Assembly (NCBI GenBank): GCA_040753875.1
Contig: JBFMDV010000014.1
Coordinates: forward strand, 1 to 43,371
Source: Candidatus Zixiibacteriota bacterium
Lineage (GTDB): Bacteria > Zixibacteria > MSB-5A5 > GN15 > FEB-12
Direction: 5' to 3'
Length of the DNA: 43,371 nucleotides
Every line of letters begins with the position of its first letter. Within the stretch, counting starts at the first letter, position 1. A model generated the notes under the pieces. That model was not told the origin of the DNA and did not search any database. It saw only the letters and a list, made by a program, of their open reading frames with translations. This document shows, in pieces, positions 6,907-42,612 of the stretch. Position numbers and translations under genes: made by a program.

Positions 6907-6957
6907 GCGTCAGGTCACATCATCCGCCTGGCGGCGGATGCCAGGACCTTACGCAAC
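6907..6957. repeat. Dispersed palindromic repeat, copy A
   Basis: Arms GCGTCAGGTC (6907-6916) and GACCTTACGC (6945-6954) pair at 9 of 10 positions, 28 nt apart, with AAC after the right arm. The spacer holds a second perfect hairpin, CATCCGCC-TGGC-GGCGGATG (6921-6940). The wecB stop codon lies inside the right arm, so the repeat ends the gene and may stop its transcript. Confidence 0.8.
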
Positions 6958-17900: not shown

Positions 17901-18032
17901 CATACACCTCCCGGATGTGAGCGGACGGCGATTCGCTCGGCCAATATACACGCCCGTTAAAACCGGGCGCAAACTCAAACTGGCAACCAGAGTTTGCTTG
18001 CCAACGACACTGGACAGTCGTTTCTTGCCGCC

Positions 18033-18407
18033 ATGCCACCCCTGCCCCTGATCCATCGTCATCCCACCTGTCTGCTGGCGCTGGTGCTCGCGGTGATGCT
18101 CACAGGATGCGGACAGAACGAGAACAGAGCCGGCTCGCCACCGGAAGCATCCGCGGACAGTGTCGTGATCGAGCTGGCGGGGCGCGACTCGGTCTCGGTA
18201 TTTGATCTGCTGCGCTCTTCACATGAACTCGAATTCAAATCCACGGCCATGGGAATGTTCGTCCGGTCGATCGATTCGGTTGCCAACAGCTCGGCCGCGT
18301 ACTGGGTGTACTCGGTGAACGACACGATGCCCAAGATCGCCAGCGACAAGATGCTTACGCGTACGGGCGACCGCGTCAGATGGCACCTGCGCAAGACGAA
18401 GCAATAG
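18033..18407 (+). CDS. DUF4430-type lipoprotein
   Basis: The 124-residue product has a lipoprotein signal (LALVLAVMLTGC) and a DUF4430-like domain: SVFDLLRSSHELEFKST, then SAAYWVYSVNDTMPKIASDKMLTRTGDRVRWHL. This fold is also found at the end of transcobalamin and intrinsic factor, and in bacteria is often on surface proteins. ATG 18033 is preferred over TTG 17994 because it starts the signal peptide. The gene is divergent from the membrane protein at 17028-17900 and is followed at once by a dispersed repeat. Ligand unknown. Confidence 0.72.
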   Translation: MPPLPLIHRHPTCLLALVLAVMLTGCGQNENRAGSPPEASADSVVIELAGRDSVSVFDLLRSSHELEFKSTAMGMFVRSIDSVANSSAAYWVYSVNDTMPKIASDKMLTRTGDRVRWHLRKTKQ

Positions 18408-20940: not shown

Positions 20941-21121
20941 CCCCACAGCTTGGGGCTTGTTGAAAGACTATGCTGTTCCGAAGTCAGTAGCAATCGTTCG
21001 TTGTGGCGGGTCTTGCGGCCGCAAGTTATATCATCGCCGCACTTTGACTTTGCTCAGTGCGACGATGACGGTGTATGCTGGCGTTGAAGCACGGCCGTGT
21101 GACCCGCCACTTTTTCAACAG
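20941..21121. repeat. Nested palindromic element, MITE-like
   Basis: Three nested inverted repeats lie between kdsD and the radical SAM gene. The outer is TGTTGAAA near 20959-20966 with TTTCAACA ending at 21120. The middle is GTGGCGGGTC (21003-21012) with GACCCGCCAC (21101-21110), perfect. The inner is the stem 21031-21043 with 21056-21068, 12 of 13 pairs. On the right the outer and middle arms touch; on the left about 36 nt come between. No protein is encoded. Confidence 0.55.
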
Positions 21122-41239: not shown

Positions 41240-42307
41240 TCAGCAAATCCTCGGCAACTGCTCTCCCACCGGCATGTCCACCACCCGCCAGCCGCCGATA
41301 CGGGTCTGCATAGTCACGCGTACGAATGACTCAGCCGCCACCACCTCACCAATGATCGATGCTTCTTTGCCGAGCGGATGGACCCGCATCACGGCCAGCA
41401 CCGGCTCGGCGCGATGGGGTGCGACTGCCGCGATCAGCTTTCCTTCGTTAGCAACATAGAGCGGATCAAACCCAAGCATTTCGCAGGCCCCGGCTACCGG
41501 CGGGTGAACGACAATCTGCGGCTCGTATATGCGAATGCCGACATTCGAGTTCTCAGCGAGCTCATTCAGCGTCGCCGCCACACCACCCCGCGTGGGGTCT
41601 CGCATGGCATGCACAGCGCCGTCGCCGGCCATCAGGATAACCTGCACCAGTTCGTGCAGCGAGGCGGTGTCACTTTGCACGCTCGTTTCGAATGCCAGCC
41701 CCTCGCGTTTTGACAGCACGGCTATCCCATGGTCCCCGATCGAGCCGCTCAGAATGATCTTGTCTCCGATCTGAAGGTTCCGCGATGAGATCGTCCAATT
41801 GTGTTCGATCACGCCCACCCCGCTCGTGTTGATGAACAGTTTGTCCGCTTTCCCTTTCGGCACAACTTTGGTATCACCAGTGACTATCGACACCCCAGCA
41901 TTCTGCGCCGCACGTTTCATCGAAAGTACTATTCGCTTGAGGTCTTCAAGGGGAAGGCCTTCCTCAAGGATAAACCCGGCGCTCATGTACAGCGGACGGG
42001 CGCCACACAAGCAAATGTCGTTGACCGTCCCGTTGACCGCTAAGTCACCGATATCACCGCCGGGGAAGAAGATTGGGTCCACCACAAACGAATCGGTGCT
42101 GAATGACAGTTTCCCCTTTGGCGGCTCCAGCACTGCCTGATCATCGAGCTTACCAAGTGCCGGATTATCGAACGCCCAATTGAAGAGCTTGGTGATCAGG
42201 TCGTTCATCATGCGACCGCCGGAGCCGTGGCTGAGCTGCACCGTGTCGTGAGCGCTGATGGGAAGGGGGCAGTTGGCGAAATCTTCAGGAGCAAGCGGCT
42301 TGTTCAT
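41240..42307 (-). CDS. hypE: [NiFe]-hydrogenase maturation protein HypE
   Basis: This 355-residue PurM/AIR-synthase-type protein helps make the Fe(CN)2CO group of [NiFe] hydrogenases: it takes a carbamoyl group from HypF on its C-terminal Cys and dehydrates it to a thiocyanate. Motifs are VQLSHGSGGRMMNDLI, GDIGDLAVNGTVNDICLCGA, VTGDTKVVPKG, MRDPTRGGVAATLNELA, and the last four residues PRIC with the acceptor Cys. ATG 42307 follows a dispersed repeat by about 12 bp and no ribosome-binding site is seen. No other hyp gene or hydrogenase is in the window, so it stands alone here. Confidence 0.93.
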   Translation of the reverse strand: MNKPLAPEDFANCPLPISAHDTVQLSHGSGGRMMNDLITKLFNWAFDNPALGKLDDQAVLEPPKGKLSFSTDSFVVDPIFFPGGDIGDLAVNGTVNDICLCGARPLYMSAGFILEEGLPLEDLKRIVLSMKRAAQNAGVSIVTGDTKVVPKGKADKLFINTSGVGVIEHNWTISSRNLQIGDKIILSGSIGDHGIAVLSKREGLAFETSVQSDTASLHELVQVILMAGDGAVHAMRDPTRGGVAATLNELAENSNVGIRIYEPQIVVHPPVAGACEMLGFDPLYVANEGKLIAAVAPHRAEPVLAVMRVHPLGKEASIIGEVVAAESFVRVTMQTRIGGWRVVDMPVGEQLPRIC

Positions 42308-42318
42308 GGTCTTATAGT

Positions 42319-42369
42319 GTGTCAGGTCACATCGTCGCCCGGGCGGACGACATCAGGACCTGACACAAC
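42319..42369. repeat. Dispersed palindromic repeat, copy D
   Basis: The best-preserved copy: arms GTGTCAGGTC (42319-42328) and GACCTGACAC (42357-42366) pair at all ten positions, 28 nt apart, then AAC. The spacer holds an imperfect inner stem (CGTCGCCC with GGGCGGACG). It lies only about 11 bp upstream of the hypE start codon. Confidence 0.85.
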
Positions 42370-42396
42370 TACTCAATATCTATATCTATCTATGCC

Positions 42397-42422
42397 CGTC
42401 ATTGCGAGGCGCTTCGCCGAAG
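42397..42422. repeat. CGTCATTGCGAG-type palindromic repeat, cut short
   Basis: CGTCATTGCGAGGCGCTTCG then CCGAAGC match the opening of a widespread REP-like element in which GAAGCAATCT normally follows. Here it changes to GAAGCACCTA after about 42422. The break may be the insertion point of the IS110 element to its right. Confidence 0.5.
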
Positions 42423-42612
42423 CACCTATGTAAAGGCCGACGTCAAGTTCCTTTTTTGTTCCTCTTGCCTGCGTACTGGAACTCAAGCACCTATTCAGGC
42501 CCAGCACCACGTGCCGCCTATGATTTTGACCTGCCTGTCGGTACCCAACTCAATCTCACGGGCCATATTGCCCAGCTTCGGCCTCGGGCCCACCGACAGT
42601 ACATCAGTACGC
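42423..42612. other. Non-coding end region of the IS110-type element
   Basis: About 190 bp lie between the broken repeat and the transposase stop, with no protein gene. AAGCACCTAT occurs at 42420-42429 and 42485-42494. In IS110/IS1111 elements such non-coding ends can encode the bridge RNA that picks target and donor. Whether this end does so is not shown by the sequence. Confidence 0.4.

Follow-up and report, generated by a model that had tools for sequence, protein, structure and literature searches.

GTT-tagged REP elements and their probable cognate RAYT transposase in a Candidatus Zixiibacteriota bacterium

Background

REP-associated tyrosine transposases (RAYTs) have two inverted repetitive extragenic palindromes (REPs) at their flanks; the abundance of REPs correlates with the RAYT, and the two co-evolve (PMC2817692). 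Typical REPs carry GT[A/G]G, whereas the repeats of subclass 2.6 and class 3 are atypical (PMC6006769). The Escherichia coli enzyme, TnpAREP, cuts single-stranded REP at CT and requires both the GTAG and the bulge (PMC8266576).

The repeat family described here was noticed in a 43,371-nt stretch of DNA, referred to below as the window. With the REP/BIME elements of E. coli and their TnpAREP (TnpAY1 subclass 2.2 / group 2) it shares a long hairpin with an unpaired internal region, a RAYT gene between inverted copies, intergenic dispersal, doublets, and a HuH/Tyr enzyme of the same predicted fold (4ER8 being the best PDB match). It differs in the tag (GTT, not GTAG), the internal loop (CTG/TGT), the enzyme sequence (about 24% identity over the structural alignment) and the enzyme motifs, which are [S/T/D]HxH for HuH and mostly YIHNNP, in place of the DHLH and YIHYNP of TnpAREP. 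The hosts also differ, being Zixibacteria and FCB relatives instead of Proteobacteria.

Three further systems invite comparison. TnpAY1 subclass 2.6 / Bertels group 5 RAYTs of Bacteroidetes (PMC6006769) have a comparable Y motif, YIH[QN]NP, and flanking repeats without the GT[A/G]G consensus, and the nearest non-clade sequence in our tree comes from a Bacteroidota genome (weak support, 93/75); compared by description, those systems have an NH motif and weak secondary structure, whereas [S/T/D]H and strong structure are found here. CGTC-tagged palindromic repeats (Di Nocera 2013, PMC3733652) are likewise tagged, intergenic and often dimeric, but they have stems of 8-9 bp and no dedicated RAYT, in contrast to the GTT tag and dedicated RAYT of the present family. 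IS200/IS605 elements (IS608, ISDra2) likewise encode a HuH/Tyr enzyme and end in hairpins that have a 5' guide; unlike such multi-copy insertion sequences, only two RAYTs of the clade described below occur in the genome. The element type, REP/RAYT, is known; the GTT tag and the lineage are new, and our literature search found no paper pairing Zixibacteria with repetitive extragenic palindromes.

Repeat copies in the window

The preliminary description of the window listed four copies of a dispersed repeat. On re-reading, all four were recovered at their positions, with 10-bp arms, a spacer of 28 nt (25 nt in one copy), ACA just inside the left arm and AAC after the right arm. A fifth copy, absent from that description, belongs to a divergent, long-hairpin subfamily (GTT-GTGGCGGGTC-TTG...TGT-GACCCGCCAC). 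The copies and their covariance-model scores are:

6907..6957, REP strand minus, model strand plus: REP copy 1, 70.6 bits
18427..18474, REP strand minus, model strand plus: REP copy 2, 38 bits
20997..21115, REP strand plus, model strand minus: fifth copy, 37.1 bits
25465..25515, REP strand plus, model strand minus: REP copy 3, 70.1 bits
42319..42369, REP strand minus, model strand plus: REP copy 4, 66.7 bits

Copy 4 has perfect 10-bp arms and reads 5'-GTT-GTGTCAGGTC-CTG-hairpin-TGT-GACCTGACAC on the REP strand. As described earlier, it lies 5' of hypE (minus strand, start at 42307), 12 nt from the start codon. The pattern with both exact arms was matched once in the window, against a mean of 0.00 in 100 shuffles. 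Copy 3 is indeed placed between the convergent genes rsmB and alr, and copy 2, downstream of a gene for a DUF4430 protein (17994-18407), is decayed in part, its right arm GACCTGGAGC no longer matching the left arm in full. All four copies had been called intergenic, but copy 1 is so only in part: it shares the final 9 nt of wecB, whose TAA stop (6949-6951) is created by a G-to-T substitution in the right arm of the repeat (CTTACGC). The same copy also provides the final codons of wecB.

Near the contig end, the window additionally encodes an IS110/IS116-family transposase (PF02371, 42613-43326). A stretch of 149 bp adjoining copy 4 (about 42396-42544) has a 95% counterpart at the beginning of contig C39 (L021), which suggests a repeated insertion sequence.

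A genome-wide family with covarying stems

The host genome comprises 3.29 Mb in 39 contigs. The core pattern GTCAGGTCACA-N15-40-AGGACCT is matched 21 times in it, and the reversed control pattern not once. With 20 copies as input, a covariance model located the repeat at no fewer than about 65 distinct places, a lower bound with 150 of the 2215 first-look candidates scored. On the model strand, the consensus is NN-GTCAGGTC-ACA-[inner hairpin]-CAG-GACCTGAC-N'N'-AAC; its complement, the REP-like strand, reads GTT-NNGTCAGGTC-CTG-[variable hairpin]-TGT-GACCTGACNN and consists of a GTT tag, a 10-bp basal stem, a conserved internal loop (CTG/TGT) and a variable apical stem. The AAC, equivalent to the GTT tag on the REP strand, is retained in 60 of 63 copies of the genome, as is ACA (likewise 60 of 63). 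At the hairpin foot this tag stands in place of the canonical GT[A/G]G.

Compensatory pairing, suspected earlier for the spacers, exists both in the inner hairpin and in the arms. An alignment of 20 rows, unfitted to structure, contains two-sided changes in 10 of 19 pairs (54 cells, compared with 15.5 in shuffles). The larger alignment of 69 rows, which leans towards the structure, has 15 such pairs (260 cells versus 68.7 in shuffles) and a covariation score of 0.511, with 0.138 in shuffles. In the arms, the two outermost pairs occur as several Watson-Crick types, and GTCAGGTC...GACCTGAC is replaced by GTCAGTTC...GAACTGAC in 10 copies. The repeat is real. Few further copies and spacers without compensatory pairing would have counted against the preliminary description, and neither is the case.

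A RAYT gene between inverted copies

The genome does encode a RAYT flanked by the repeat, a gene which the preliminary description had proposed to look for. The Pfam model Y1_Tnp (PF01797) recognised four RAYTs, on contigs C28, C3, C20 and C23, and no copy of the GTT-tagged repeat occurs within 2.9 kb of any of them. The NCBIfam model NF047646 added two more, on C25 and C26; the C25 match (C25:149914-150309) is above the cut-off and falls inside a cluster of four repeat copies, while the Pfam match of this protein is below the cut-off. The two genes are:

C25:149854-150333 (L056:2355-2834, minus strand): probable cognate RAYT gene, HuH/Tyr transposase of 160 aa
C26:2109-2588: second RAYT gene of the clade, product 53% identical to the C25 RAYT

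One repeat copy lies 17 bp upstream and another 10 bp downstream of the C25 gene, mutually inverted and with their GTT/AAC ends outward. A variant with a long hairpin, GTTCTGCCAGGTCTTG...TGTGACCTGGC, stands before the C26 gene; it belongs to the same subfamily as the window copy at 20997-21115.

Across 26 sequences, His60-x-His62, Tyr120 and Asn124-Pro125 do not vary. A single-sequence phmmer search of the PDB gave no match; a profile search identified E. coli TnpAREP (4ER8) as the best match (1.3e-12). The AlphaFold model (pLDDT 91.9), compared with the PDB, placed 4ER8 first and the IS608/ISDra2 transposases next. The protein combines HuH and single-Tyr (Y---NP) motifs with a predicted TnpAREP fold, and it is probably the enzyme that copies the repeat around the genome.

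The four PF01797 proteins were rejected as cognates, having no family copy within 2.9 kb and, for at least three, adjoining other repeats. The gene at C28:10328 is surrounded by four repeats of another sequence, about 121 bp long and 95-99% identical (L022:1236-3134). Two GCCGTCAGGC/GCCTGACGGC hairpins come after the gene at C20:78581 (L024:1885-2030), probably a REP family of its own, and hairpins of the CCCACCCGCAAGCGGGTGGG type flank the one at C23:1022 (L025:900-1620), probably a third REP family.

The RAYT clade in other genomes

A scan of 84,980 species genomes returned seven RAYTs at 52-57% identity, from Candidatus Zixiibacteriota (three), candidate division LCP-89, Candidatus Electryonea, an FCB-group bacterium and one further bacterium. 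The repeat adjoins the gene in all seven, and in none of the 73 other, more distant RAYT loci of the same scan list. Among 98 genomes searched (the host and relatives), we read 21 RAYT loci of at least 49% identity (L175-L195), every one with an adjacent copy. The geometry is nearly constant. Of 19 upstream copies, 18 are inverted; all 20 downstream ones are forward, and the distance to the gene is mostly 2-17 bp. The placement of a RAYT between two inverted copies, seen at C25, is matched by most of the 21 loci, which have both copies, and the GTT tag is present in 46 of the 50 copies around the relatives' RAYTs.

In the tree, the repeat-flanked RAYTs form one clade (support 100/99). A RAYT of genome G026 with two weak model hits beside its gene (L200, 35% identical) falls outside it. 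The RAYT locus of G020, from the same family as the host, is identical to contig QNAF01000384.1 (Candidatus Zixiibacteriota).

Copy number follows the enzyme. The median copy number is 28 (minimum 5) in genomes with a clade RAYT and 4 in those without it (Mann-Whitney p = 3e-7, with no phylogenetic correction); zero copies were counted in 23 of the 77 genomes without a clade RAYT and in none of those with one. Many copies were nevertheless found in some genomes without a detected clade RAYT (G029, 56; G026, 55; G049, 49), and G052 and G053 are also repeat-rich; in these, the copies may outlive the enzyme, another RAYT may serve, or the assembly may be incomplete. The strict GTGTCAGGTC pattern had no copies in viral contigs.

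Turnover and doublets

In genus g30, the 56 copies of G029 stand against 0-1 in its three congeners. Two copy-bearing spacers of G029 align to orthologous spacers of congeners that are about 190-280 bp shorter and have no copies; the insertion boundaries are not readable at base level, because the aligned congeners are only about 70-77% identical.

Inverted doublets (BIME/REPIN) occur at C5:275407/275479, C28:4302/4374, C24:73794/73862 and C25:150350/150428, and three doublets have a constant 12-nt gap and a common longer unit. Tail-to-tail doublets are contained in a unit of about 190 bp with inverted GAGGCTGTCCC ends (L057:2850-3090, L058:4245-4485, L059:2240-2480). The GAGGCTGTCCC end has five matches in the genome, all in such doublet units or their derivatives.

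Gene context and alternative explanations

Gene context was read with a simple, rough codon-usage gene caller written for this analysis. By this measure 62 of 63 copies are located between genes or near contig ends, and one overlaps a predicted gene substantially. The flanking genes are co-directional for 29 copies, convergent for 14 and divergent for 10, with 9 at contig ends.

The preliminary description had considered both a REP/MITE moved in trans and an RNA element used as a terminator or processing site. Movement of a REP in trans is strongly supported: the RAYT is flanked by the repeat, the whole clade likewise, and copy number tracks the RAYT. We therefore consider it very probable that the repeats are REP elements, dispersed by the cognate RAYT/TnpAREP encoded at C25:149854-150333 between inverted copies. 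The RNA reading is not supported. A structured RNA at gene ends (terminator, attenuator or RNase processing site), in which the covariation reflects selection on RNA, would fit the strong RNA-type covariation, the intergenic position of most copies and the distance of 20 nt or less between several copies and a predicted gene end. It is nonetheless very unlikely, as no T-tract adjoins any of the 63 copies on either side, so that the copies do not have the layout of an intrinsic terminator, in which a T-tract comes after the GC-rich stem in the sense direction of a gene. Co-directional placements comprise 17 sense and 12 antisense, that is, no orientation preference, and the 10 copies between divergent genes point the same way. 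No terminator-like site was found at 42100-42600, and no Rfam covariance model matched the copies at gathering score (the sole match in the window is a tRNA). The tie to one transposase clade would also be left unexplained. Secondary effects of copies on mRNA stability, as for other REPs, are possible.

That some copies sit in the 190-bp unit with inverted GAGGCTGTCCC ends could indicate a MITE that belongs to a DDE-type insertion sequence and is mobilised via its terminal inverted repeats, not by a RAYT. These ends, however, accompany only a handful of the approximately 65 copies, and the common unit is the GTT-tagged hairpin, which flanks a HuH transposase in several lineages, so that we regard a MITE as highly improbable. 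Even less credible is that the hairpins are protein or nucleoid binding sites (for gyrase, IHF or similar) situated near RAYT genes by chance. REPs of other bacteria do bind such proteins (PMC6006769), but about 65 copies spread over 3.3 Mb should rarely fall within about 20 bp of a given gene. All 21 clade RAYTs nevertheless have one adjacent, nearly always in fixed geometry, whereas the other four RAYTs of the genome (C28, C3, C20, C23) are free of copies over 2.9 kb.

A possible mechanism of REP dispersal

The structural features of a REPtron that we tested for were all found, with the exception of the canonical tag: copy abundance, flanking of the RAYT, the enzyme itself, doublets, and the correlation between RAYT and copy number. 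Binding, cleavage and transposition by the enzyme are inferences, as is any activity today. The RAYT would bind the folded, single-stranded REP through the tag, the basal stem and the internal loop, and would cut beside it via a 5'-phosphotyrosine on Tyr120, with a metal site at His60/His62. It would then re-join this hairpin, or an inverted pair of hairpins as a doublet, to a different single-stranded site, with replication forks as the probable place. By analogy with E. coli, the CTG/TGT loop may take the role of the bulge, and GTT that of GTAG. Selection by the enzyme for foldability would keep the arms paired while their sequence drifts, and template correction within the DNA hairpin possibly contributes to arm pairing.

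More tentatively, though with a slight preference over the contrary, we propose that a RAYT lineage widespread in Zixibacteria and FCB relatives uses a GTT guide and a conserved CTG/TGT internal loop in place of the GTAG tag, so that its cleavage-site rule would differ from that of known RAYTs, and that the sister RAYTs of C25 and C26 (53% identical) diverged jointly with the short- and long-hairpin REP subfamilies. The REP/RAYT system is herewith extended to Zixibacteria and FCB relatives, with a clean pairing of gene and repeat over dozens of genomes. The co-varying pairs of enzyme and hairpin in these genomes, which carry a different tag, are natural material for studying what guides a RAYT to its hairpin and cleavage site.

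Two minor observations concern the arrangement of copies. The singletons at L085:5465-5520 and L072:2203-2258 resemble deletion products of doublets between the repeated arm GCGTCAG, the resulting hairpin being double-tagged (GTT...AAC). In the relative G029, five or more REP copies stand in tandem at C1:428920-429371 (L206), with a period of 99 bp.
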